Below, one piece after another: positions 15,591-64,000 of a stretch of 64,000 bases of DNA. Source of the DNA: Anas platyrhynchos (lineage: Eukaryota; Chordata; Aves; Anseriformes; Anatidae); assembly GCF_047663525.1 (NCBI RefSeq), contig NC_092601.1:18313501-18377500 (forward strand). Reading direction: 5' to 3'. The notes beneath the pieces were generated by a model that was given only the letters and a program-made list of their open reading frames with translations, did no database searches and was not told where the DNA came from. Within the stretch, counting starts at the first letter, position 1; every line of letters starts with the position of its first letter. Made by a program: the position numbers and the translations under genes.

Positions 15591-16099
15591 TTGCCCACAA
15601 CAAAGATGGCGGCCCCTCACTGCCCTCCCAGCCATTCCCAACCCGCTGTGAGGGCGGAAGTAGCGCGGACGGCTTCAGGGCGGGCTGCCCTCATGGGGTC
15701 GCCGCCTCGGAAGCGGTTTGGGGTTCAAAGAGTGGCGGGGCCCGGCGGGACGCTGAGGAGCGCGGTGGGGACCTGGGGGGGGGGGTCGTGAGGTGGGGGC
15801 GGCCTGCGGGGCCTGGGGGCGGTGAGTGGCGGTGGTCCCGCCAAAGGGGGGCAGCTCCCGCCCTCCTGTGCCCTTTATTTTGTCCCTCCCTTCCTCCTCG
15901 TTGAGGTTTGGGTGGAAAAGTGGAGGTTTTGGGGGCTGTTGGTTGTGGTAAGGGCTGGGTGGCGCCGTCTCTAGGGCGGTTCTGAGGGGTTGGGGGCTTT
16001 GGGGGAGGCGTTTTGGGGTGTTTCCGAGGGCAGTAGGGGCGAGCTTTGTGTCCTGCTTGCTGCCCAGCAGCGTGGTGCTTCCTTCGAGCTTTGGCAACC
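15591..16099 (+). promoter_or_regulatory. CpG-rich promoter and 5' UTR of the 19-exon gene
   Basis: A sudden CpG-rich island in AT-richer DNA, with no TATA box and an ETS-type GCGGAAGT element at about 15,654. A pyrimidine-rich stretch ending CCCAG at 16,067 could be a 3' splice site joining a non-coding first exon to the exon with the start codon, which lies 33 bp further on in a good Kozak context (CAACCATGG). The exact transcription start is inferred. An upstream ATG at about 15,692 opens a short frame and is not the main start. Confidence 0.7.
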
Positions 16100-19000
16100 A
16101 TGGGGTCCTCAAAGGGGGAGGAGGAGCAGGGTGTGATCCTCATCAGCGATGACGAAGCTGAGAGCACGCTTGGGACTTCGGTTCTGTTGGTAGACCCCTC
16201 AGGTAGGCATTGGGCTCCTGCTCACCTGTGAAAGTTCTCACAAAACAAGTCTGTGAAAGCCTCTCCTACCTGTCTTTGGATAGCATGTGCAAGTCTTTTT
16301 TCCTATTCCTGTGTGCCATTTGCACCATATGCAACCATAAGAAAACTTGCACCTTATTGTTTCAAAGAATAACTCTTAGTAGCTGATGACTTTGTTGTCG
16401 AGTTGTAGTTACCTCTCTACTCATTTAGACTTTTTTCTCGTTTATACAGAAAAGACCGCCGTGGAAGAGGAGAAAACTGAAGAGGTTGTAGACGAGGAAT
16501 GTGACCTCATGGTTACATTCTGTAAACAAGCAAATGTGATGCCCCACGCCAGATACGACTGTACAATACACCCGTTTGAGTATGTTCGCTGATATGGAGG
16601 ATGATATGGGGCTTTCCTTTCCTACATTTAAGCCAACTTGTCAAGTAACCTTGTTAGCATTTGAACAGCTAACAAGCAGAAAGAGTTGGATAAGGGCACA
16701 GCCAGCTCTGTAAGTAATGGTCTGTTTTTTAACTGTGCAGGAGAATGGAATGTGATACGTGCTCGCCCCTTGGAAAAAATGCTGATTTTTGTAGTCAGTG
16801 CTACTGCTACATTTGTGATAAACTGGCTTCTGAGGTAAGGAAGAACTGTAGTAAAAAAAAAAATGCACAACTTTGAGTAAACTGAATTCCTGAAGTCTTT
16901 AAAAGACATCACTCTTATGCACACTAAAACAATAAACAGAACTTAAATTTGATTATTTTAACATTTCCTCTTCTAAATGTTCATCTCAGTCAGCTTCACA
17001 GCGCTAAACACATGGCCAGTGTCTGTATTTATTTCTAGTAGTCCAGTAAGTTGTTGGAGTAGATGTTCATTTGATAAAAAACAAATGTACCTCCTCTTTT
17101 CCTTGGGCACATGGTGTATTTCATGGAATCATTGCACTAAATCAGACTGTTTCTCACTGCCCTAGGCAAAGGTCAAACTTTAGATATTCCTAACCAAAGT
17201 GTAGGGGGCGAAGTAGGGGGGAGCATTGTTTTGTTCTGTTTGTTTGTTTCTCTGGTGTGACTCGTTTTGTTTTAGGGGGAGGGATCTTTTGTGTATCTCT
17301 CCTTTGCTTTGCTTTTGTTTTTTAGAATTCAGCAAACTTTACTTTGTGAGTAAAGTTGGGCTAAACATGCAAAAACAACGTTCTGTTACCAGTTTACAAG
17401 GGGGAGGGTGTGAAGCCTAACTGCCTGTAAGGTGTTCGTTAATGAGGGTAAAACTGTGGGGAGAGGGAGGACCTGTCTTTTTTTTCCTGCTTTTAAAGCC
17501 ACGGTAGCAAGCTATTGCTGCATTGGTCTCTTGCCTCAGCTGTCAGAATACCTCCTTGTGCTTTGACTAGCTCTGTAAAGCATGAAATGAATTCTAGTCC
17601 TTCACTGAGTTGGAGGAACAACTTTTTGTCTGCTTAACTTGGGAGGAGAAAAAAAAAACTTATCCCTGTCTTTCCCTTTTCATGAAATAGTGCCAGAATT
17701 GGACGACCTCTTCCCTCTGTCACTGCAACGCACATAACAAAAGCAAATTCTGGAAGGAACAGCGTGATTTTGCCTTGGCTGGTGTTCTTGTAATGTTCAA
17801 ATTGGAGCTCACAGAAATAGATGCAGACCTTCGGCATGGTGGTAAGCATAGTGCACTTACACTGTCTTGGGAGACCTGTGGCTGGCTGTGTTTGCTCATT
17901 CTGTGGCTCGATGATACTTAAAATCTATGAGGACTGCTTGTCTGGACTATAGCTGTCCTTGCAAAGGCCTGGTGAATTATTTAGGTAGCAACTTTTCTCT
18001 GCTATCCCTTTCCTGGGCCATTTGTGGAACAGACAGATCTGCAGTTCTGTTTTTTTGCTTCCTACTTTTCTCCCCCTGGAAGAAGCACCAAAGCATGCCT
18101 GGCCATTAAGATTGCATGCAGGGGATTTGACAAACACTTCGCACAGGGTACCTATGAATGTCTTGCTGTTTCTTTTAGTTTTGAAGAAAATGGATGCACT
18201 AACAGTTTTACGTCTCTGCCTGCCCTCTTAGGAAATCTTCTAATAAATTTTATCCAGGAACTTTCTGTGGAATATAATAAGTATTTGATTGGAGAAAAAA
18301 TACCTCCCATACAACATGAATGCTTTTGTCTCCCAAAGTTACCTCCTGGCCAATGCAGTATCTGCAGGTCACGCAACCCGGAGGTTGTATACAAGTAAGT
18401 GACACCACAACTAGCAGTACATGTTGGTCAGTGCAAATTTGCTTTCCTTTAATTACATGCTAGTTAGAGTCATGGCACCTGAGATAGCGGGAACTTAACT
18501 GAGGGAACCTAACTGGTCAGCTGGCAATTAAACTACATCCAAGTTCAATTCAAAAACTCCTTTAAGTGTATTTTTAAATATGTCTCTTTCTCTATGAGAA
18601 GACAATTGCTAATATTCCTCATAACAATTTGGGAAAGCATGAAACTAAATTCAATATTTTTACTAATTTGTTAGGATTGGGTTTAGTTCTTACTCAGTGG
18701 TATATGCCTTTAAAATACTGAAAGTAATGCTTTGCAAATGCCATGTCACCGTGTCGTAGATTCTCAAGGAAAGGTAGTTAGTTTGCTTTCCAACAGTAGG
18801 ATGGTCATAATTGCCATTTGTTTACAAAATATATTGTTCCAGACACTCTATCTTATGGACTGCTTAACTTTCTTAGGTATTCTGGAGTTTTTGCACTGGT
18901 AACAAGATTTTTAAATCAGGCAGAAAGAGAGAATCCTAAAGCTACTGCTGTTATGCTTCTGGGAGCAGCTAAAGAGCTAGCCCTTCATAAAGACCCTGCT

Positions 19001-22000
19001 TTGTAAGTATCCGGTTCCATATCTAGTGTGTAATCTTTGTTTGCTCCTCAAAAGGAGGAGATAAAGTGAGAGAGTTCTGGTTTTCCATTTATTAAGGGTA
19101 GGAACAGTGTAAAGGTCATAGCCCTGGTTGCAGCACAGCGAGGGAAAAATGAGTATGCATGAGGAAGAAATGAGCCTGACTGCAGGGAGGGATTCTGGGG
19201 GACAGAGAATGATAAAGGTTGCATGTGGGAGGAAGAAGTTGCATGGGATTGAGCCATGAGGGGAGAGATGATCTCTGATGATGGAATTTGAGATGGGAAC
19301 TGGAAGCAGAGAGGGTAACAGACAGCAGATGGTGGCAGGTGGGAATCAGTTCTAAGGGAGAAGATAAAGGGCAGGGGAGCGTTCCTGAACGGAATGTGTG
19401 CAAGCTGCATTATGTGAAGAAACATCTGCTTCTGAACTGGAAGGGAGGACGTGATGCTTTTCAGGTAGTAAGTCTTAGAGCTGTCCCATAAGTCTGGAAA
19501 TTGACCTGTTTTGCTGGGAGGACTGAACAATAAATAAACAGCACAGTGTTTAAAGTCTGTTTTTTATTTTCATGTTTACAGTATGGCTGGTTCATACTTG
19601 ATTGCTGTCTGGCTCGAGCAAGGTCCCGGAACTTTGCTTAACAGAATCTAAATATTTTGGAGCTAGAATTGAAGGCTTCTTAAAAAGCAGCAGTAAATGT
19701 GGTGTGGATTAGTTCAACAGGCCAGAAACAGCAGCTCCTCTGCAGTTATTTTTGAGGAGTTATCAAGGTTGAAACCATTGTTTGGGTAGGTCTCCCTGTA
19801 CACTTACTGTGGATCCCACAGCGTTCACAGTAGTCACATAGGATGTGGTTTGGCCCTCTTGTGGGCTGATATACAGCCCTGTGCAAGCACAGATGTGCTT
19901 AAAATGATCTAATACAACATGTTAGAAGGATAGGTACCGCTTTCCTGTCCCTGTGACTGGGCCAGAGGGGTTGTGCTTTAGTTGGTTAGGTATTGCTGAA
20001 AACCAGCTCTAGGATGTTTTACACTTCGATCACTTGTTTTATCAATTATTAGTGTGATAGCTCCCAATGCTTTTTAAGAAAAGTGTTGTCTCAAATAGTT
20101 GTGTACAGAGAAAGTAAAAATGCAGGAAAAACAAAAAATTAATGCTTTTCTTTCCCTCCCCTTCTCTGTGCCCCCCTTAGAAGCTGGCAGAACCATGGTC
20201 ATATTGATTCGCTAAAGCTTGCTGTCCCTTATTTGTTGCAAAGGTAAGACTTATCACATAGTGCTGAGATGGCAATAAGATAGTTGCTAGATGCAAGCAT
20301 TCTGCTTGCACTTGAGGTTTGAGTGTGTGCTTTAGCTCTTAAAAGCCTTAAGGAAACTTGGACAGATCCAAAATAAAGGTATGGAGTCTTATGGTTCTGT
20401 AGCACTGGGGAACAGGACCTAAATATACAATGTCAGGCACTGGTTTGTTTGAGCAGGGTGTGGAGAGCGAGCTGCATGTGTGAAGACTGCAGATGTGTAG
20501 GGACAGACAGAAGAGTATGGAAAACTACACGCACCAGTCAGCCTAATAAGCAGGGACCTCAGCATGCTTTCTTATTCTACGATTGTATGCAGCAAATCGG
20601 GGTTTTTAGCATCTCTGCATCTTAGTCCCTTTCTGTGAAGGACAAGAGCAGTATCAGCCTTGCTTAGAGCCTCGTAAGGACTCAACCCTTCTTTGTTGCC
20701 TCAGAGGAGACTACCTTGATAGTGAACTCAAAGCCAAGAAGATGGATTACTTTTAGACTGTAGTCTAGGAGTGTTCTGTAGGGCCAGACCAAAAGATGGT
20801 GTTGGGTAGCTACTTGCGGTTAGTAAGCCGAAGAGTAAATAGCATCTGTTCAGAATCAAAACAGCAGCCTTGTAGTCCTCCACTGGGATGGAGTAGTCGG
20901 GGACGTAACATAGTGAAGTTCCCCCAGAGGTTAACGAATGAGGACATCTCGCTCACTTGGCTTAATTCATTTCTCATTTTAGCTTTTCACCTTTAACCTG
21001 AAATTCACTTGCAACAGAAGGTTAATGAATTAAGAATTAACTTTTTTCTAGGAGCGCTCAAAAACAATTAATATTCTCACCTCTATGACAGGTATAACCT
21101 AAATCCTTTATCAGTTTTCATTTTAAATGACTATTCCTGAATTTATTATTTTTTTACTTTAAAAGAACAGTAAAAGGATTTTCTTTGCCTCCCTCCCCCA
21201 GCTTCAAAAGAATCAAGCTCTTTGTGTCAGTGTGTTATCTTCAGTTTTCAGTTAAGGCAAAAATGGTTTCACAAGCTTTGAAGCTGCCAGGAGCTTAGGT
21301 TGATCAGTTTCCTTATCGAGCTTACAGGACGTTGCTGCAGTGTTTCTTGCACACTCATTGGGGATCTTCTTTAAAGCATAAGCCCACAGAACACATGCTT
21401 GCACTGATGTTTACAATTAATAACATAAGAGCAATATCCATATTCACTGCAACTCTTAAAGCACAAACTTACAGATCCAAACTGTCTGACATTTAACTGA
21501 AGGAATCTATATGTACTCTCTGTAGTTTTCCATGTTGTTTTTTTTTAATTTAAATAGCAATTTTATTTAACGTTAACATTTTCTTTTTGTTTTTTCTATT
21601 TAAAACAGGATCACAACAAAACTTCAGAGGATGCTAGTGTTGTGTGACTTCCCAAAAAATTTATATGAGAAGTTTATTCATTTTTTCCAGTCCATTTCAC
21701 TTCCGTGTCACTGTTTTGGCTTCTCAAATAGGTATGTTCTTTGCTTCTTGTTTACAAAGTATATTTTCATACAGCTGACTTATTTGAAAACAGCTGTACA
21801 GAAATGAACATTTTATTGGAAGGTTTCAGTATTAGCTACTTCCTATCCTGTCCTTACCATAGTAAGAAATTATTTGATGCCATTGCTAAGTGCATATTGA
21901 TAATTTTGTGTTTCTGTCCCTCAAATTGAACTGTAAACTTCAAATGTTTTATTAATAAGTCTTCACATTACTTAAGGGAAATACGTTATGGCGCACTAAA

Positions 22001-25000
22001 AAAAATACACTTAACATTTCTTTTTGTGCTTCTAGCTTGAACGTTGTGCCATGGGATCATGTCTTACTCACCACTGTTCTAAAAGGCCAGAATACCACTG
22101 GACAAAGAACACAGAAAGGAAGAAAAATATTTCTGTGGGAAGCGCTTCCTGTCATACAGGCCCGAGTGGAGAGATTAGTAGACAAAATGAAGTGAGATTG
22201 GTTTAGTCTCGTTTTGTGTTTGTTTGTTTGTTTTTCATTTTATAAATTCAACTTTGTTATTAACTGCAAAAAGTGTGTTCTGCTCTCTGAGTCTTCTGAA
22301 GCTTCTATTCAGAAGAATATAATCCACTTAAAGGCGCTCCTGTTCCCAGCCTCCTGTTCTATTTTCCTAGAGTACAGAGATGATCTGTGGATAGCTCCTT
22401 AATTCAGATATCTGCTGTGTTCCAAAGTGTCTTTATGGAACTTATTTCCAACAGTCTCTCTTTCTGCCAGTTATATTGCAAAAAAAGGTTAGAAATACCT
22501 CTTATGTGGGAGGAACTACTGTTTTGCTTCATGAATTGTAATATTTGACATGTACACAGCTTAATGCTTTCTTTCTTTTCCTACCCACTTGTTTTTTCTC
22601 TACCCAGCTATAAAGAAGTTGTTCGCTACCTGAGAGCTGTGAAATGCAATGATACCAAAGGGTAAATAGCTCTTCTTGTTTCTTTTCCTTAGATTTGTGT
22701 CCCAGTCTGTCCTTTTGTTCAATATCTTAATAAAATGACAGAAAGAAAAGCGGGATTTTGGCAGCTGTTTACCAAGTGAAAATAATACTGTACGACAGCT
22801 AAATTCTGCCTTATTGGATGTAATTTACTAGTTTTCAAACTTAATCAGGTATATACATATGCAGTGTAAAACTTAGAGTGAACAAAAATAAATTATGCAT
22901 TTACTTCTTTCCAGGTTAAGAGACCTTCGAGATAAAATCCCATTCTATTTGTGTAAAACTGGAGACTTCCTTGATGCGGCGCATTCTCTGTTGTTTCCCG
23001 TCAATAGCCTTGCATGCTGCACTGCCTGTCGGCTAACGCCTTTTCAGTTTGAGGTCTACCTGAAGATGTTCAGAACAGGCAGTGTCCCCACTGGAAAGGA
23101 TATTCAAGAACCTGCACCCTGGATTACAACTGGCAAGTGTAACTTCTTGCTTTCAAACGTTTGGAATCTTAATTACAGCTTTTAATGACATTCTGAAGTC
23201 TAAACTTCATTCAGTTTTTTTACAGTTTTCTAGGATAGCATGTAGGTTCTGCATAGAAGAACTACAGCAAAATATTCTTAAAAAAAAATAGCTGTAGATG
23301 CTTTTGTTTTTTTTTTTTTCTTTCAGTTTCTGTAGAAACCTGTCTGCAACTAAACTATTATCTTGGTTTTATCCATACTCTGTAGTTATTCAGGCAATAA
23401 AAAAGAGTCTTGGATTTTTCTTCTTGCAGGGTCTCCATTGAAGGATGCTGTTCTAATTAAGCAGGCACTCAAACTCCTTTACAGCAATCTGTCACTATAT
23501 AGGAATGTGAGTCTGTATTAAAACTCTTTCTATGCCCCATTGAGTGGTTTTGTACATTATCTGTTTTGTCCAGTTACTTCTCCAATGAAAGGATTTACTG
23601 TCAGGACCCTTTTCTCTGAATGGTTCATACCTTTGTGAGACTTTTGCTTTACTTGTGGGGTTTTTGATCATTTAAAAAGTCTTGTTTGGGGGAGGGGAGG
23701 AAACAAACTCTTTTCTCCGATAATAGTTCAGCGCTCTGTCACAAAACGTGTCAAGTTTTGTAAATGGTCCCTTGATTTAGCTGGAACCTTTCTGACAAAA
23801 TTATGACAAATCTTGTATGTATGCAGCTCTTGTAAATTCACTGAGTTTTGCAGTATGCCATAGTAGTGATAATCAAATTTACCATATGTATACGTTCTTA
23901 CAGCCCCACTGTAAATAATCATAGCAGTAATGATCACACCAGCAGCAGGTCTGTTGATGGCTCAAACAATAGAAATAAAACAGGTGAAAAAAGCCTCACT
24001 TTACTACAGGTGAGGCAAAATAGGTGGGCTGTTTTGCAACCTGATAAATGAGATTGGGGAAACCCCAAGCATTAACATGTAGTTTGGGTGTAGTTTTGCC
24101 TGGGTGTTCCATTAGAGAGGAAGAAGAGTGAATGCAAGTCAGCATGTCAAAGGGACTTACTCTGATTGCTAAAGTTTGCTAAACATGGATTTGACTGTAA
24201 AACAAATGCTCTGCTGTGTTTCAGCCTAAATGCTGGAGTTCCCTCATCATGATTTTGGGTAGTAGCCGTTTGCTAGAAAAAAATGGGCACCTACATCCTC
24301 TGTCACTGAAAGAGCCACCGCTTGACTTCCAAGAGGTAACTGAAATAGGGCTTTGAGATGGAAGTACTGTTGTCTCTGCTTTATACAAGACATAATTGGA
24401 TGTGGGCATTGCCTCATCCTTTTAAATACTAAGGTTAATGTTACACTACCTCATCAAATATTTTTATGGTATGTGCCAAACGTAATACTTTGCAAAAATT
24501 GTGAATAGGGAATAGATGAACTCTTTTTGCAGCTCAATGCTGAACACTAATTCTATATTGTTCAATGTTGAGATGAATCAGACAATTGCAAAATGGATAG
24601 GAAAGCCATTTAAGAAAAATGTGTTCAAAGAGTCCTAAGAGTCAGTACCTGGGTGTTTTCTTGACAAGAACAGAAATAAGTGTCTGCTAAGCATAACAGG
24701 TTAAAATGATACGTCTAGTTAATGCTACAGAGCCTCAACTTTCTGTGTGTATGCTGTTGAACAGTCAACTGCATCTGTAAAAATGCTGAAAATAAGTGAA
24801 AGCACTTTAAAGGAGATCATATTGGGCAGTTTGTAAAGTAGGTAGGCATCCTCTTTGACTTGTGATTCGTTACTTCTTTTGCAGGGGGTGCTGGCTGCCA
24901 GTGGCAGTCTCTTGCAGGAACTGAAGGCAAAAGTTAATGTTTCTTTACCACCTGCTATTTTCTCTCCTCAAGTAAGTGTGCATCTGGCAATAAGGAAATT

Positions 25001-28000
25001 GACAACTTGGTTTATAGCTCTCAAAGATACTGCAGTTGTATTATTATGAAAAGCTGTTAAGAGAGGGCTTGAAGATTTTGGGGAAATGGCATAAGACTGT
25101 TGTTCTTCACATAGTCTGAAGGTTAGAGCAGAAATCTTGGATTGTAAGGAAATGATTAGGGCCTGTTTTGGTCTGACTCCAAGAAAATCTTCAATCCAGG
25201 AGAAGTTTAAATTCACTGCTGTCCAAATTTATGCATCTACAAAGTGAGGGCTGGTAATCCCTGATTCTGTATTAATCTCGCACATAGAATAATCTTGTGT
25301 TGTTTGGTTCAAATTAGAAGCTATCCTTTGATACTAACAGTGTGTTTGTCTCAAAACTCAGAATAGCACAGTTTCCCAATTTGCTTTGAACAATGGTTTC
25401 AGGTGTGAAGCATGACTTGAAACGGGTTATTTTATTAAATACAATCAACTATCTAAGGAGCAATCTTACTCTGTTTCACCTCTCTTGAGGAAACTGCATT
25501 TAGGTTATTCTCCAAGTACGTTACTCTTGGGCCAGAGTTTTTCTCCCCTTAATTCTTCCACTTCTGCTACACTGTGATGGTATGAGACTTCATGTTTCTG
25601 TGAGGACTTTGAAAGCCCCAGGCAAAACATGCTATAGAAACAGAAATACTTGTTTTATTCTCCATCTTTCGGTCACTGTAAGATTCTTCTGGATGTCGTG
25701 TCTATCATCTAGCCTGTGTGCTTGGAATGGTAGTGACTTAGTGCTGATTTGATTGGATGTGATATGCGAGTAGTGAGAAAGTGGACTTATAAATACATGT
25801 CTCTTCTTGTGGATATCTCTTCCTGCAGTTACAGCATGAGGCTTGTCTTATTCTCGCAGTGCAAGCAGTACAACAGATGCTTTTCTGTGATCTCCCATAC
25901 TTGACTTCCTTCCTAGAGATAGCCCTGGCTTTTGGGGTGAGTCCTAGATATTGACTTCTATTCTAAGAGATTAAAGCAGATTAAATATAAAATCTGTGTA
26001 ACACCAACCTGGTGTTGTTCCCCTTAAGCTTTTTTGACCTTTAATTTCTTTTGTGTATTTGTGTTTGTTTTTTTTTTAAGAAATGATAGACAATTAAGTT
26101 AAATCAGTGCCCTTATTTTGTCTTTTCCTAGAATAACTTCTGGGCTCTGAGGCTGTTACTGGATCATCTTTCCTATCAGGAGCATGTTCTCCATGGCACT
26201 GTCAATCTGATTTTGAGAGATCTGAGTCGGCAGAAAGTAACAATGCTAAAACTGTGAGTAAACACTTGCTTCCTGAAATCTGTTTATAAAAATCTTAACA
26301 GCAGTCTCGAAGCAGTAGCATTTAGCAAAGACACAATCCTTAGCTCTTTGAAAATAAGATGCTGGGAATCAATGGGAAACAAGAGACAATAGAACACTTA
26401 CATAAATGATGCATCTGTTTTGAATATTGTGCACGATCCTGATTCCTTTTCTCAAGGTATAGAATGACCTCTGTGAGAGAAATTGGTTAACTTGACTCAA
26501 CCATCTGAGCCTGGGGTTATGATAATGGTCTACAAAGCTTTCTATGCTAAAGGTGACCAGGGAATAATTGTTCACAGATCAAGAATCAGGGGGCTTAAAG
26601 GAAATCTGACGTGGCAAAACAAGATGGATTAAGGTTGTATCACTTGGAGGTGTGAATTTGGATGAGGAGAATGCTGTGGAAACAAAGTATATACGGACTG
26701 AAAAGCAATTAAGCAAATTGCTGTAAGACTCAAGTACGACCAGCGTGGAAATAGCACTCCAGACCTAAGGAGGTAGTTCTTGAGCTGTTGACGATACAAG
26801 TGTACTTAGACAACAATTAATTTCCATCAGATCTGTATGAGCTAGCACTATTCCTTATCTGTTCCTTTAAACAAAAGGTATCTAGCGCATCTCCTTCTGT
26901 GTATCTGGTTTGCAGAAGGCCAAAATAAATATTGCGGTTTTTGTGAAGGGAGGATACTGAGCTAGACGGGCCATTGACCTCACCCAGTGCAGCCATTCAC
27001 GTAGCAATAAAGCTTTGTAGTATTTCTTACACAGTAATGCTTATTGGCCAAGTAAAGGTACATCTGGAATAGCTGCAGCAATCTGAAGTCTCTTTCCCTG
27101 ATGGGGACCCCTATCATGGTGAAATAGTTCCAGCTGGAAAAAGAATGCCTGGTCATGGTATTGCTATGCCTACCTAATAGATATATTGTTAATCAGAAGG
27201 TTTTAAGTGGAAATTGTGATTTTTGCATTCCTATAATGAGATGCTACTACTTTTAAAGCAGATTGAAGTATGAGAAAGTAGCACCAAGAGAAAAGCAATG
27301 CAGATATTGCCATTTGTCTTTGTTGTTGAACAAATATGTTCTGTTTCTTGGTCTTACGTTGTTTAGGTGGCAAAACCTTGGTCCCCAGTATGTGGGTGAA
27401 TTCCTTTGCCTGTTCCTGACTTGCAGGCATAAGAAGATGCAATCTATCGGTCTGTTCGCTCTGAATATAGTTACAGAAAACCTGCATATGTAAGTGTTAA
27501 TCTTTATCATAGCCAAACAGCAAATTATTATACATTGCAACAGTGCTGGTAGCTTTCTCTTAATTGAGATTTAACGCAAAATTAATTACTGTTTTATATA
27601 CTTCCTTATTATTAGCAGCAGTAAAGATACTGAAAGTGGTAGTTTGAGTGGATTTGAAATTGTTCTATGTTCCTGTTGAACTAAATGGCCTTCTAACTTG
27701 CCAGTGCCCTATGTTGTGTCTGCTCTGTGCAACCCTAACCAGTCAAGTTCTGTTAGTTTAATGCCATTGTCATCTCACTTCATTCTATTTAGGTTTATAA
27801 AAACAACAACAAAAACCTTAGTTGGAATTTAGACACTGGACTCTAGGGAGGTATAATGCTGCATAAAACTTCATTTAGAGGAAATAGTTCAAATTAGCTC
27901 AAAATGTACATTGTTGTGTATCTGCCAGAGTACAGTGGGTTTACAGATGTCAACGTTTCTTTTAAACTTGTAAAAGATGTTTCACATGGTGGTGAGGGAG

Positions 28001-29157
28001 TAAATCCCTATTAAAAACTAGACTCAGGAACATCTGGGCACTGTAATGCAAACTGATGACAGGATTAAGTTTGTGCTTGTCGGTCTTATCCTGTTTTTTT
28101 GTTTGTTTTTTGGTTTTTTGTTTTTAAAAGAGAAGATTTGATCAGCAGCACAAAGCTGCTGGAGTGGAAAACAGCTCCGTAAATGTCTGAGTACTATGTT
28201 TAGATTACAAATGAGGATAAAACACTGATAAGTCCCTATGGAGACCACTAGATATTCCTAAATATAATCCTTGCTCTCCTGGGTTGTGCAGGAAAGCATT
28301 AACTTCTATCACCTTACATCTTATGTGTTGACATAATGGTTTTAAAAAGAAATGACTCGATGCTTATATACCAGAAGGCAGAATAACTGCCTGCTCTGAC
28401 ACTTTCAATTCACACGTAGCAGATGGCAGCAGAATAACGTTGAGAATTCACTTTTTAGTAGCTTTCAAGTAAAAATCATGAACATGTGAGTTAACTTACC
28501 TTGTAAAATGCTTTTTCCTTCCCCTCTCTCAAGCCTTTGTATGTATCTTAGGAAATAAAATTCCTAACTTCACTCTGTTGTTAAATATAACTTAGCTCAT
28601 ATAAAAACTTGCGGTTCTAATAAATGCCTCTTCTTATCTCAGATTTTGTGAGGTTTTACAGTACGCTCTAGCAGTAATCCAAGAGAATTTGATGAGATCC
28701 TTTTTGTTATGGTCTATCTTTGTCTTTTTTTTTTACTGTACGTCTGATGCGGGAGTCCTCTCTATTTGGAAGTTGAACTGAATTGTTAGTGTGGCTGAAA
28801 CTGGGGGTAGGTCTGTCCCTATGGAAAATGGATTAAGAATTATATATTTGGATCTGTTTTTAGGTGTCCATGGGCAAAGAACCTTTGCAGATTCTTTCAC
28901 AATGTAGTAAGTATCTCTGTACCTTAGAATTAACAATAAAGCATATAAATGACAAATAAATCATTGATATATGGTGTATTTGATATGTGATAATAGATAA
29001 ATATTTGAAATATTTAGTAATGTCATTTATTGTAAAGTTGACAAATTACTGATGTATGTTATCTTCTTTGTCTGCACAGGGATTAAGGTATCTGCCCCTT
29101 GGCACTGCAGCTCATCGTGAAGTCTCAAAGTTCATAAGCATTTTTGAAAAACTATAA
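16100..29157 (+). CDS. Uncharacterised nuclear-type protein, SIM-like motif plus Cys/His-rich module (19 coding exons, 709 aa)
   Basis: I do not recognise a named gene. Coding exons: 16100-16202, 16450-16579, 16741-16834, 17691-17841, 18232-18394, 18877-19002, 20181-20243, 21609-21731, 22036-22191, 22608-22661, 22915-23132, 23430-23506, 24225-24335, 24885-24971, 25829-25936, 26132-26253, 27367-27489, 28864-28906, 29080-29157. All phases agree. The start was chosen for its Kozak context. Residues 12-19 (VILISDDE) look like a SUMO-interaction motif with a CK2-type serine. Residues 72-124 hold ten Cys and three His, centred on CYCYICD at 98-104 and followed by [11 protein letters not shown], resembling a module I recall from plant RPM1-interacting protein 13 (recalled family pattern, not searched). 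Further Cys pairs lie at 190/192, 201/204 and 422-426. Residues from about 240 to 709 look helical and leucine-rich, perhaps a solenoid. No signal peptide or membrane span is seen. Zinc binding and nuclear location are inferred. Confidence 0.88.
26918..27000 (+). mobile_element. Probable old CR1-like LINE 3' fragment in an intron
   Basis: The stretch reading GGATACTGAGCTAGACGGG, CCATTGACC, ACCCAGTGCAGC matches the consensus pattern of an old sauropsid CR1 tail (usually GGATACTGGGCTAGATGGACC followed by a TCTGACCCAGTATGGC-like end). It lies in the intron between coding exons 16 and 17 of the unnamed gene and is diverged, so it is likely older than the other CR1 pieces here. The outer limits are uncertain. 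Confidence 0.6.
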
Positions 29158-30082
29158 TTTGCCAAAACTTTCAAGCGTTTTTCAACTTGTATTCCCTGGA
29201 TATACCTCTTGCTGGGTTCTTTGTTTTCTGTTTTGTCATCTCTTCCTTCACTTAAAAACATTCACCTAAGAACTGAACAGACAAAACCAAAAATTCTAGA
29301 TTTAGGTGGTGAATAGTGGCTGTATTTCAGCAGATATGTTCTGGAAATGTCCTTTTTTTGAGACATGTGTATTAAGCCCTCATTTAAAGAGGCAAGAGCT
29401 GTATGTTGTAGGAAAAGCTGGCCTACAGAGATGCTGATCTGAGGCGGCGGATGCAAGAGGTATGAGGAGAGAAACACGGACGAAACAGCACCAGAAGTTT
29501 TTGCTTTTGAGTTGCACAATTGTGTAGTTGTGTTCTGGGTGAGAAAGCTGCAGCAGAGCAACTGCTAAGAGAACAGTTAGAAAACCTTCTCCAATGGGGA
29601 AAATTGCCTCTCCACTAGTGTACAACAGCGTACGTTAATGCTGTTTGCACTCCTTGGTTTTCTTTAGTGCATAATTATAAAAATAAACCACTCTTCAGTT
29701 AGTGTGGTTCAGCCTGAACCTTTCTTATTTGCTGCAAGAAATCAGAATCAAAAAAGCCATAGCCTGTTTTTTGTACTTAAAAAAATATATAGTTTTAAGG
29801 TTTTCTAATTGGGGGGGCTTTTTTATATTCTACAATAGCTGGCAAACTGGTGCTGATGGCTGTCTTTTTTTTGAAGTCTGACTACAAGTTTTAAGAAAAC
29901 TTCTTTGAACTGTGAAGGTAGAAATGGAAATATTTCTAGCCTTGTTGTACTGTTCTGATACCTGTCTGCATTGCTTTGGCAGTTGGGACGAAGTTGTTAT
30001 ACTGTATTTTGTTATCCAAAGTGAGTTACGTTATTCAAGTCTTCCACAAAAAATTACACGCATCTAAAATTACTTGAGGTTT

Positions 30083-30088
30083 AATAAA
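30083..30088 (+). promoter_or_regulatory. Poly(A) signal of the 19-exon gene
   Basis: A canonical AATAAA about 0.93 kb after the stop codon, followed within 30-50 bp by GT-rich sequence, which makes 30.10-30.12 kb the likely cleavage region. The 3' UTR from 29,158 is AT-rich. Earlier AATAAA-like words in it (for example AAATAAACC near 29,680) could give shorter ends. Confidence 0.65.
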
Positions 30089-36434: not shown

Positions 36435-37360
36435 ATGGACGAGTGGGACCTGCCGCAGTGGAAGAAGGAGGTGGAGAGCCTCAAGTACCAGCTGGCCTAC
36501 AAGCGGGAGATGTCCTCCAAGACGATACCCGAGTGAGTGGGCATGGCGGGGAGTGACGGTGGGGCTTCCTCCCTCTACCCCCTCCAAATCTCCTCCCTGA
36601 ACGAGCTCAGAAATCGTCCCCCCGCGGTCACCCAAGCCCCAGCTGCTGAAGGCTCCCCAGACCCCCCCACAGGTGCCTGTAACGCCCCGTGCCTGCTCCT
36701 CTCAAGCTGCCCAAGTGGCCAGGACGTGGTGGCAGCTGAGAGACCTCTGGGACTCCCCAGGAGCCCCCCAGCGCTTTGGGCTCAGCCACCACCTTGTGCC
36801 CTGTCCTGTACCTTTCCTGTAATGGGGCGGTGGGTGTGAGGGTGGACACCCAGAGGCTGTAAAGCAAAGCTGGAAATGAAACGTGTAACGTGGTCATGAA
36901 GAGGTATTTCTTCATGGCTCGCACCTCGCTGCTGCCTGCCATGAAGGGGCTCGGGACATCCCCGCGGCCTCTCTCTTACACAGTGAGGGGGGAGAGGAAA
37001 AGGGTGACCCAAGCACGGTTCACAGGGCAGTGCCGAGGCCGGCAGCACACGTCAGCCACAGACACTGGGGACAGGAGGCAGCTGATGAGGTCTCAGCGAG
37101 CTGGGGGCCCCCAGCATGGTGCTCCCACAGCAAAACTTTGCCCCAGGCCCACCATGTGCAGGCCTCGATTCGGTGCGGAGCAAATCCAGAGGGGTTTGTG
37201 CACTGCAGCCCCAAAAACCCGGGCTGTGTAACATCCCCCTGACCCCTCCCGCAGGTTCGTGAAGTGGATCGAGGACGGCATCCCAGAAGATCCCTTCCTG
37301 AACCCGGAGCTGATGAAGAACAACCCCTGGGTGGAGAAGGGGAAGTGCAGCATCCTCTGA
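36435..37360 (+). CDS. GNG13: G-protein subunit gamma-13
   Basis: Two coding exons, 36435-36532 and 37255-37360, give 67 residues, the usual length of this subunit. The protein opens MDEWDLPQWKKEVESLK, has the short coiled-coil helix used to pair with G-beta, the NPWVEKGKCSIL tail and a CaaX box CSIL whose final Leu predicts geranylgeranylation and membrane attachment. Gamma-13 is known to work with G-beta subunits in taste-cell, olfactory and retinal ON-bipolar signalling (established for the family). The start codon sits in a strong Kozak context (GTGCCATGG). The gene converges on CHTF18, whose stop codon lies about 0.6 kb downstream on the other strand. Confidence 0.97.
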
Positions 37361-58400: not shown

Positions 58401-61400
58401 AAATGTTCCTTCTGCGTGCTGGGGGCTGCAGGGGGGGGCAGCACTGTGGGACCCGTGCAGCTCATGTGGCTGTGCTGGACCAGAGAGCTTTTAATTGACA
58501 AAGCAAATCGCATATGGCCTGCAGAAACATAAGCACGTTCTCCAGGAATAAGTTTAAAACTGACGAATGAAAGTGAATAAGCCACAAGAGTGAGAGGGAG
58601 AACTGGGGGCGGGAAGCTGACCGCAGCCCTGCCCTACGAGGTGTTCAAGCAGCATTACTGCCATAACCTGCCCCTTCCACAGGGCTTTTCTGGGGGCTGT
58701 AAGGTCCCATGATGAGATCAGGGCCAGGTGTAGGGGGAAAACGCTGACCCCTGAATTGTCCTCTCCACCTGCAGGCTGCACGTCCAAACCCATCACCCCC
58801 AGCACCCTCTCTGACAGCCTCCTGCTCATCGACTACGAAACCCCCGAGCAGTTCTACCTCTGCCTGAGCGATCTGGTCCTGCAAAAGAGCCTGGCACGTG
58901 TGCTGGATCAGGGGCTCTCCACGGAATACCTCCAGATGGTGAAGAAAAAGCTGCTGGAGGTGATGGATGAAGCAGGGCAGGGGCTGCTGCTCGGTCCCCC
59001 GGTTGGCACGGGTGGGACCGGGGTCTGGGCGCTGCCGGGAGCAGGAGGTGCTCAGCGGTGGGCTGGTGCTTGGGGTGATGCCCCTTGGTGCCCTGCAAAG
59101 CACCAAGGAGTTTGGGGGCTGGGGACGGCGTGGGCAAGGCAGAGAGGCAGCAGGGTGGGGAAATAGGTGGGGAAATGAGCTGGGTGAAAAATGCGTGGCA
59201 GAGAGCAGAAGGGTGGTGGTGTGGTGGAAACAGGGGTTTCTCAGTGCTCCTTAGGCTGCTGGAATTTGCCTCGGGATATGGAGAGCACCTCCTGTCTTAA
59301 TAAAGACAATGAGAGAAGCATCCCCCCTTCCCGACCCTCTTCTCTGACCCTCTGGCCATACAGATATACCCCGCGGGGATCCCGGAGGAGCAGCTGAGGC
59401 TGCTGGGGCCGCTGTCCCGGCAGTTCTCGGCTCAGGAGATCAGGCAGTGGCAGGTGACCTCCAGCGACACGCTCTACGCCCTGCTCATGAACGGCATCTG
59501 GAGCACTGCCCAGGTACCCGCGCTGCTGGGGGACATGGGGGGACAGCTGGTGGCAGCAAAGGCAGTGCCCGAGCAAGGCATGGGAGGGGGTTTGCAGCTC
59601 GCACGCCTTCCCCCCAGGAGCGTTTTCCTGCCCCAGACACACACAACCCTTGGATTGTGTTTTCCAGAAGGAGCAGCTCATCGCAAGGTACCTGGAGCTG
59701 GGGGGCAAATTAACCGGCCCCTTGCTTCGGAGAATCGGTGGGAGCTGCCTGTGCAGCCTGAGCGAGGAGCAGATCAAGGGAGTAACCCCAGAAGCAATCG
59801 GGTAAAGAACTCTGTAGGGGTATTTGCTGGCCCTGTGTTGTGCCTGGGATGGTGGGGGAGGAGGGCAGAGGGGCAGTGAGTTCCCACCTCCGTCCTGGCC
59901 CTGCCATGTCCCCCTGTCAGCTCCTGCCTGAGCCAAACCACTTCTTCCCCCCAGCCACCCAAAGGGCTTTTGAAGTGGCTTGGGTGTTGCCCCGTGCCCT
60001 GCCCTGTGACCCTCCCTTTCCCCAGGAGCGCCGGAGAACTGGACATTTCCTCTTGCTCTCAGAGCAAAAAGGACCAGCTGTACAGAACAGCCCGGGAGGC
60101 CTTTGATGGCCAGGCCTGCACCCAAGCCTATTACGACCAGATCCGGCCCTACCTGGGTAGGTGCTGGGTGCTCCAGCCTGCGCCTTCCTCCCCATGGCAA
60201 AGAGGCACGGGGATGCATGGATTTAGGCCCCCACGTGCTTTCTTCAAGGTGGAGCTCCAGTAAAGGACCTGAAGGACTTGGCTAACGCTGGCATCACCAT
60301 CAGCATGGACACTTTTCTTGCCCTAAATCCCAACGAACTGCAGGTAACTGAAGGGAAGGGCCAGTCGAGGGCTGCGCTGTGGGGCTCCAGGCCGCAGGCC
60401 CATCGAATCACCAAGGCTCTATTTTTCACCTTTTTGTTCTTTTGTAAGCTATTACGTGCTCTGCAGCCCCGTTAGATAAGCACCTTGTGGCAGTGCCAGC
60501 TGTGGGGCTGACCAAAGGTGCCGCGTACGTATTGCAGAAACTCAGTGTCATGGACGTCAAAAACCTGCTCGGGACGGAAGTTGAAGAACTGAAGAAAGCC
60601 GAAAACCAGACCGCCGTGCTTAGCTGGATCAAGAAACAGTGCCAGGAGGAGCTGGACCGGATCCTGGGAATCTGCCTGCATGGGGGGATGGAGGAACCCT
60701 GCCCCATAGGGACCACCCCCCCGCCTCACCCCGCCACCTCGGCCAGTAGCACCCCCACGACCGCCGCCCCCACCACCACCACCGCCCTCCTCACTTCCCC
60801 CAGCCCCATTGCCACGAGCAGCCGCCCTCCTACTACGCCAAACACCAGCCCCAAGACCCCCACCCCAAAGGCTGTCAGCCCGACCCTCCCTACCAGCACT
60901 GCCCCACACGCTTCCACCCCCCGGCCCAGCACCACCGTGGGTCCCGCTGCCACCCCCACAGCCCGGCCCACCCCGGCCCCCAGCTCCATCACCCCGTGCC
61001 TCATCCACCAGTCGGCCACCCCAAACAAGACCACCACCACCCCGGCTGTCACCCTCCTCGCCACCATCCTTGCTGCCACCAACCCCAGCGCCACCTCTCC
61101 CAGCTCCGTCCCCCCCCCAGGTGCCACAGGCAGTGCCCCCCCCAGCACTGGTGTCACCAACCCGGCTGTTACCCGTGGCACCAGCACCCTGCTGGTGCCC
61201 AGTAACACCCCAGCACCCGGGGGCACCACCAGCCCAGTTCCTGCCACCCATTCCACCACCAGCCTGAGCACCCCCGGTGCTTCCAGTGCCCTTGTCCCAA
61301 AGTCGACCGCTGCACCCGCTGCCATCACAGCCACAGAAATGAACCTTCCCCACAAGCCCACCCCAGTTCCCAACACCACTGTCTCCACCCAGAAGGGTGG

Positions 61401-62413
61401 CAGCTCCTCAACGGTCAAGACCACAACGTTTGCTTGCAAGACTGGTGCCCCTCCGGCACTTCCCGGACCCTCTTCCACCACCTCCAGGAGTGAGAACACC
61501 AAGAAGACACCCACAGGTGTGCCAGAGACACCGAAACCAAACTCTGGTGGATACATCAATCTGCAACCCGTACCTGGTAAGGCATGTTAAGAGTCAGGAA
61601 AGGCTTAGGAATCAACACCAAGGCAGAAATCTTCACTGACCAGAGCAGCCGATCTGCCTTTTTCCTTGCCAGGTTCAATCCTGGCATGCTGTTATCCACA
61701 AGAAACCCCAGATAGCTGCTGGCACGCCAGGTAGCAATGTCTCCACAGGGCCTTACAGCCCCTGGGTCTGCAGCATTCTGCCTTCAGATCCTGCAAGTCC
61801 AGCAAGGTTGCCTCTTAGGATGTCTTGTAATGTTCTGAGTGCACAGCAGCCCCCAGCCACTCTGCAGAAAGCTGGAGAAATTGCAGTAATGCCAGTGCTC
61901 TGCTTTATTTTTCACAGGGCAAGGATACAGGCCTTCCATATTTTAGCTGCACGTGGTCTTCTTGAATAGGCATCACTGCAGAAGCCCTAAAATCTGAAGT
62001 CCTGTATCCTGATAGAGCTACTTCAGTAGTTTTATTGACTCAAACAGATTTACTCCTGTTTTACACTAACAAAATTAAGAGAAGACTCAGTCCTCCTGAC
62101 TGCTCATGGCAAGGTGGTGATTGCAGCTGGGGTGCAGGTCCAAGCCTGAAGGTGCAGGGTATGGCCAATGTGACAAAAGGCAGAAAACTGTTGTCCTACA
62201 CATGCAGTCCCTCAGGGTACCTGAACCCCAAAGCAATTCTACAGCCCTAACAGCTCACACGTGGTATCGATATGGATAATCCAGTTATTTCTCATCTGTG
62301 TTCTCTCTCCAGGATCAGGATCCTCTCCAGGATCAGGATCCAGGCTCTCCTCCTGCTTGGTGCACATACTGACCATAGCCGTGGGCTTAGCACTGCTGCA
62401 AGGGCTTCTCTGA
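55467..62413 (+). CDS. MSLN: Mesothelin-family GPI-anchored glycoprotein with mucin-like stalk
   Basis: Sixteen coding exons: 55467-55512, 55757-55788, 56166-56215, 56820-56940, 57019-57104, 57447-57573, 57664-57854, 57943-58033, 58118-58262, 58775-58959, 59364-59513, 59668-59801, 60026-60156, 60249-60343, 60538-61576, 62313-62413; 907 residues. A signal peptide (MLLAAPALATLVLSL) is followed by the helical repeats of the family and a furin-type site PRLKR (289-293), matching the split of mammalian precursor into MPF and mesothelin. The C-terminal half keeps landmarks such as CSLSEEQI, YLGGAPVKDLK and LLGTEVEELK. Residues ~587-865 are a Thr/Ser/Pro-rich stalk. The last exon encodes a small-residue omega region (GSGSSPGSG) and a hydrophobic tail ending ALLQGLL, a typical GPI signal. 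Family role: cell-surface adhesion. Position and orientation match human MSLNL, so orthology to MSLN or MSLNL is open. Confidence 0.93.
56604..56671. repeat. 17-bp minisatellite, four units
   Basis: Four imperfect copies of GGGCATCTCCTTTGTCA in the third intron of the mesothelin gene. It has no coding role. Confidence 0.95.
62305..62340 (+). repeat. Perfect 18-bp tandem duplication across a 3' splice site
   Basis: Two identical units of CTCTCCAGGATCAGGATC. Each ends its pyrimidine run with CCAG, so the duplication creates two 3' splice sites 18 bp apart (after 62,312 and after 62,330). Both keep the reading frame of the last mesothelin exon and differ by six residues (GSGSSP). Confidence 0.95.
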
Positions 62414-63110: not shown

Positions 63111-63668
63111 AGCTAACAAACCTGAACAGTTTCCACTTCTTTTGCTCTGACTTCCTTCTATCTTCTCCTCTCACAGCTCTTCTGCAAGCAAGCATTTCTC
63201 CCTCCAGCTTGCAGAGTTTCCTCCTCACTAATTCAATTCTTCACGGGCTGAGGAGACTCTCTCATGTCATTTATTGAGTGAGTCAAGGCACGAGGAAACA
63301 ACTCAAGATTTCTATTTAAGGAATCATGATTTGGGGAAATACTGTTAAAAATGTAGGCTGCCTTTCTTGGAATCCCACGCCCTTCCCTCCCAGCCTAGGT
63401 AGTGCCCCAGCACCACTGGATGCAGGCAATGAGGAAATGTCTCTTGCCACCCAGAGATCTGCAATGATGGACAGACCAGTCTCTCACATTCCTTTTCTGT
63501 AAACCGCAGACAATAAATATTTATAATGCCTTTGCAGGAAAGCAAAACGGATTTCAAGGGCTAGATGCTGACAAAGTACAGTTCGCACTAGGGCTTTTTC
63601 AGACAGAAATCCCCCATGAGTGGAAAAAATATGCTGAAAGCCTTATACAAAGTTCTTACGCCTGTTTT
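63111..63668. other. Intergenic DNA
   Basis: No exon, RNA gene or repeat recognised between the mesothelin 3' end and the CR1 fragment. Open frames are short and without domains. Confidence 0.6.
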
Positions 63669-64000
63669 TTTATAAACGATCTGGATGTAGGAATAGAAGG
63701 CATTTTGAGCAAGTTTGCTGATGACACCAAACTTGGAGGAGTTGTGGACTCGAATGAGGGTGGAAAGGCCTTGCAGAGGGATCTGGATAGGTTGGAGAGC
63801 TGGGCGATCGCCAACCGCATGAAGTTCAATAAGAGCAAGTGCCGGGTCCTGCACCTGGGACGGGGAAACCCTGGCTGCACGTACAGACTGGGCGATGAGA
63901 CGCTGGAGAGCAGCCTAGAAGAGAGGGATCTGGGGGTCGTGGTAGACAGCAAGTTGAATATGAGCCAGCAGTGTGCCCTGGCAGCCAGGAGGGCCAACCG
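63669..64000 (+). mobile_element. CR1 LINE, reverse-transcriptase part, cut by the window edge
   Basis: A single open frame of about 110 codons without a stop. It carries the reverse-transcriptase block FADDTKLGG (the catalytic Asp pair), then [24 protein letters not shown], the [20 protein letters not shown] block and AARRAN, which is the CR1 ORF2 pattern. The left edge is abrupt at a T-run, consistent with 5' truncation. The element continues beyond the window, so its 3' end and full state are unknown. Confidence 0.95.

Follow-up and report, generated by a model that had tools for sequence, protein, structure and literature searches.

A 19-exon gene next to GNG13 in a bird-like genome encodes a possible SUMO-reading adaptor with an unusual Cys/His cluster

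RIN13 (RPM1-interacting protein 13) supports immunity in plants. Together with the zebrafish protein zgc:112980 it presumably forms the PANTHER family PTHR33443 ("ZGC:112980"), which, on the same assumption, would include the protein described here. We take the module of plant RIN13 and zgc:112980 to consist of HAR..C..H.F, then C..CYCY.CD, then HC.A......W...R, in the order in which these elements follow one another in the present protein. According to a review (PMC8831314), RIN13 can direct PAD4 to the nucleus. Oberon-type proteins are described as carrying a signature in which a Cys4-His-Cys3 PHD finger comes after a four-Cys finger (PMC9640981). SIMC1 is described as combining tandem SUMO-interacting motifs (SIMs) with a 17-helix solenoid-like region and provides a precedent for a SIM followed by an alpha-solenoid (PMC9708086).

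In the 64,000-nucleotide stretch of DNA analysed here (the window, to which all positions refer unless a contig is named), a coding gene of 19 exons was rebuilt on the plus strand at 16100-29157, and its splice sites and phases were checked. The coding sequence comprises 2130 nt and specifies 709 amino acids plus a stop. Exons 1-7 are located at 16100-16202, 16450-16579, 16741-16834, 17691-17841, 18232-18394, 18877-19002, and 20181-20243, exons 8-13 at 21609-21731, 22036-22191, 22608-22661, 22915-23132, 23430-23506, and 24225-24335, and exons 14-19 at 24885-24971, 25829-25936, 26132-26253, 27367-27489, 28864-28906, and 29080-29157 (all +). Seventeen of the 18 introns are bounded by GT-AG; intron 11, which begins at 23133, is of the GC-AG type. 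After joining of the exons, the coding frame contained the terminal stop only, compared with 46 and 45 stops per 709 codons in the other two frames, and stop codons accounted for 5.8-6.9% of intron codons. A previous inspection of the DNA (the sequence-only reading) had proposed a real gene of 709 codons with perfect phases, and the intact frame and matching phases found here bear out that proposal.

The region was further evaluated with a crude gene finder that uses splice consensus and phase only, with 20 Markov shuffles and the reverse strand serving as controls. The real strand scored 18.8, whereas the best shuffle reached 5.6 (shuffle mean 1.7) and the reverse strand 1.2. Adding a length term raised these values to 85.3, 53.5 (shuffle mean 20.1), and 44.9, respectively. 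Six of the 19 exons were recovered exactly without the length term and nine with it, and the best chain obtained with the length term included exons at 23904-24009 and 28643-28781, neither of which belongs to the model. Given these extra exons and the partial recovery, the gene finder supports a gene at this position without proving every exon. When all GT or AG sites of the region were ranked, 32 of the 36 splice sites fell within the top 10%; the GC donor of intron 11 was scored from its flanks alone. The weaker sites were donors 2 and 6 (76th and 89th percentile) and the acceptors of exons 4 and 18 (68th and 87th percentile). The start codon, in the context ACCATGG, lies beside a G+C-rich stretch just upstream (15601-16000, no strand assigned; GC 0.69, CpG observed/expected 0.63) that is a possible promoter. 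A candidate poly(A) signal AATAAA was found 3' of the stop codon at 30083-30088 (+), and another at 29682. The model almost certainly represents a real gene.

The softest part of the gene model is its 3' end, where an alternative terminal exon at 28643-28781 (+) competes with exons 18-19. This exon is in frame with exon 17 and has its own stop, with AATAAA at 28935 and 28955. Its acceptor scored 6.9 bits, that of exon 18 scored 0.6 bits, and that of exon 19 scored 7.0 bits. In the first model, exons 18 and 19 stay open, keep the phase, and lead to the 709-residue product; they are nevertheless less certain than the others because the alternative terminal exon exists. Both 3' ends may be used.

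The genome from which the 709-residue protein comes (1.26 Gb in 42 contigs) was searched for further copies, with scoring restricted to the best candidates. Among these, 19 matches were obtained, all of them at one locus (C15:18329600-18342654). The gene is very probably a single-copy gene of this bird-like genome.

Searches of the protein against Pfam-A, NCBIfam, and the PDB by sequence identified no family or match above the accepted cut-offs; NCBIfam is built for bacteria and archaea, and a null result there says little. At gathering scores, Rfam gave no match in the 64-kb window. None of the named families searched includes the protein, in line with the earlier claim that no family could be named for it. 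The suspected resemblance to RIN13, also put forward in the sequence-only reading, is a lead; on this view the protein would probably belong to a family that is already catalogued but unstudied. In the main texts of the papers searched, the strings CYCYVCD, CYCYICD, QCYCYVC, and CYCYVC were absent. Literature searches for RIN13, with or without animal terms, and for LMF1/GNG13 together with loss in mammals yielded no description of an animal family member among the matches listed, and searches for PTHR33443 and zgc 112980 returned nothing. In PMC10410763, RIN13 occurs in the reference list only.

The N-terminal tail carries a SUMO-interaction-type motif in exon 1 (16133-16162, +; residues 12-21), in which VILISDDE starts at residue 12. 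This segment has the hydrophobic core with an acidic flank by which SUMO-interacting proteins are recognized, and it is the only such motif in the protein. The first 60 residues are acidic, with a net charge of -14. Shuffling the whole protein 20000 times produced a SIM-type pattern 34 times, and 20000 shuffles confined to the first 60 residues produced it 52 times. The SUMO-interaction-like motif that had been noticed from the letters was recovered as VILISDD at residue 12, a pattern rarely produced by shuffling. Motifs of this type may be non-functional when they occur in acidic tails.

Downstream of the acidic tail, a Cys/His module at 16545-17735 (+; residues 67-124) is split across exons 2-4 and probably represents a zinc site. 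It is made up of H67, C72, H75, C82, C85, C95, C98, C100, C103, C110, C119, H120, C121, and H124. The sequence CYCYICD occupies residues 98-104, the very position given in the sequence-only reading, and the unusual Cys/His cluster pointed out there was confirmed by its density of 14 such residues per 60, which was reached by 16 of 5000 shuffles. The potential ligands would suffice for two or three zinc ions. A second Cys cluster in exon 5, C190-x-C192-x8-C201-x2-C204 (18321-18365, +), is a possible zinc knuckle. When a back-translated version of the module was used to scan viral contigs, no match was obtained, and the pattern QCYCYxCD was found 0 times in these contigs. Four matches to QCYCYxCD in bacterial genome contigs were assigned to chance, since each of the four frames was interrupted by stops less than 100 codons away and none showed the remainder of the module. 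A match of the module to an asialoglycoprotein receptor (E 0.49) was likewise rejected as chance.

The remaining C-terminal part, from approximately residue 214 onward (exons 6-19; 18877-29157, +), has no accepted sequence match and is perhaps alpha-helical. Hydrophobic periodicity was sampled in 20-degree steps between 60 and 180 degrees. The peak lay at 100 degrees, the value typical of helices, and z was 2.3 for residues 216-709 and 2.4 for residues 160-709, the latter reached by 7 of 300 shuffles. For the two halves, z values at 100 degrees of 2.0 (residues 215-470) and 1.2 (residues 470-709) were determined. Mean Chou-Fasman values were 102 for helix versus 105 for strand. Of the helical C-terminus proposed earlier, the periodicity across residues 160-709 stood, whereas the low value for residues 470-709 and the Chou-Fasman means, which do not favour helix, spoke against it; a helical body thus has modest support. 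No Pfam match was found for three fragments covering residues 153-709. A PDB search by sequence with residues 214-709 gave an NLRC4 chain (E 1.1) and a glycerol dehydrogenase (E 1.5) as best matches, both of which were rejected as being at chance level.

Taken in order, the parts (an acidic tail bearing a SIM, then the Cys/His module, then a long body that is perhaps helical) suggest an adaptor recruited to complexes marked by SUMO. We tentatively propose that the protein is an uncharacterised nuclear SUMO-reading adaptor and the presumed bird member of a eukaryotic RIN13/zgc:112980 family; this is the likeliest of the readings considered, though less likely than not. The weak match of the module to a profile of plant zinc/PHD proteins, described below, also speaks for it. 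The acidic N-terminal tail would read SUMO on other proteins via VILISDDE, and the Cys/His module would fold round two or three zinc ions and bind a partner, either a protein or a nucleic acid. The long C-terminal body may act as a helical scaffold holding further partners, and the adaptor, once brought to SUMO-marked complexes, would keep more partners there. Zinc binding, SUMO binding, nuclear location, and the scaffold role are all predicted from sequence.

A different identity of the module has to be considered in view of its Cys spacing. It could be a zinc finger of the Oberon/VIN3 type whose PHD finger is reduced, in which case the protein would be a chromatin reader and not a RIN13-type member; we consider this unlikely. 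The sole Pfam-A match was indeed PHD_Oberon (PF07227), with E 0.12 (12.7 bits) for the whole protein and E 0.0071 (16.7 bits) for residues 55-160, where the match spans residues 75-125. It was found in 0 of 10 module shuffles in which Cys and His were kept fixed, one of these shuffles matching another family (E 0.3). However, 16.7 bits is below the curated cut-off of 28.8. Palm VIN3 (7QCE) has the spacing C-x4-C-x9-C-x2-C-x-C-x2-C, and the present protein has C-x2-C-x9-C-x2-C-x-C-x2-C; apart from the first gap (x4 versus x2) the two are equal, and the common C-x9-C-x2-C-x-C-x2-C core is followed by a Trp after 10 residues in this protein and after 12 in VIN3. The pairwise score against VIN3 was nevertheless at chance level: of 2000 shuffles each, 807 equalled or exceeded it with Cys and His fixed, 766 with Cys alone fixed, and 277 with no residue fixed. 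The first six Cys of the module fit the four-Cys plus PHD signature, but there is no Cys between residues 122 and 189; the last Cys pair of the PHD finger is missing, and the Cys4-His-Cys3 signature is incomplete. In a genome-wide search with the PHD_Oberon profile this locus was not listed, although such a search reads exons singly and the module spans three of them. The likeness to PHD_Oberon and VIN3 appears to be a resemblance of zinc-site layout, not membership.

Two further explanations concern the C-terminal body and the state of the gene itself. As in SIMC1, a SIM-type motif in the N-terminal tail precedes a long region, here of ~490 residues and perhaps helical. If this body were an Nse5-like alpha-solenoid, the protein would recruit SMC5/6 to sites marked by SUMO, as SIMC1 does. 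This is judged very improbable: the present protein has one SIM-type motif and extra Cys clusters, no sequence similarity to SIMC1 was listed, and PDB searches by sequence up to E 10 listed no SIMC1 or SLF chain, the presence of such chains there being unconfirmed. The description of SIMC1 drawn on here (PMC9708086) mentions no Cys module. Nop16, tried as a marker for locating SIMC1 in this genome, gave no signal anywhere, the 14 controls included, and was dropped. That the gene is instead a decaying or lineage-restricted relic, its 3' end already damaged and exons 18-19 therefore in doubt, would agree with the competing terminal exon and with the weakness of two splice sites, the exon 4 acceptor and the exon 2 donor. 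Against such decay, 2127 coding nt are free of internal stops and frameshifts at a locus where ~6% of intron codons are stops, and we hold a relic to be scarcely probable at all.

The preferred reading, that of a nuclear SUMO-reading adaptor, can be extended to an ancient eukaryotic protein shared by plants and birds. Its zinc fold would be undescribed and its scaffold helical; it would have been dropped from mammals and would perhaps act in animal nuclear defence as well. In this extended form the proposal is quite unlikely to hold. If the plant link is true, a family that the papers listed in these searches describe from plants only gains an animal branch that is unstudied and has a tail reading SUMO, and the lineage concerned allows knock-out in cultured cells. 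If it is false, the locus adds one more uncharacterised bird gene with clear testable parts. The value of the finding lies in a testable plant-animal link rather than in anything demonstrated.

The gene sits between LMF1 and GNG13. LMF1-family exons were found upstream (C15:18154596-18261033), and the remaining LMF1-family matches were on contig C1. Downstream, two exons on the plus strand (36435-36533 and 37259-37357), spotted by their motifs, are taken to be those of GNG13. They align with successive segments of the G-gamma profile, the first below the cut-off (E 0.079) and the second above it (E 1.6e-7), in support of the claim that GNG13 is the neighbour. A genome-wide search with the G-gamma profile gave 11 matches elsewhere, and the GNG13 exons of this locus were absent from its listing. 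CHTF18 follows GNG13 and is encoded on the minus strand, where PDB entry 8umt was matched at E 3.7e-9. Stretches of the mesothelin family (PF06060) are present at 59313-61587 (+), one above the cut-off (E 2.6e-9) and one just under it (E 1.3e-5). Between CHTF18 and these stretches lies what we take, from a motif, to be an RPUSD1-type sequence. The succession of GNG13, CHTF18, the RPUSD1-type motif, and mesothelin is presumably the gene order of human 16p13.3, and the human interval between LMF1 and GNG13 is assumed to hold PRR25 in place of the 19-exon gene. At 63468-63998 (+), a weak match to RVT_1 (E 0.0011, below the cut-off) probably marks part of a retroelement.
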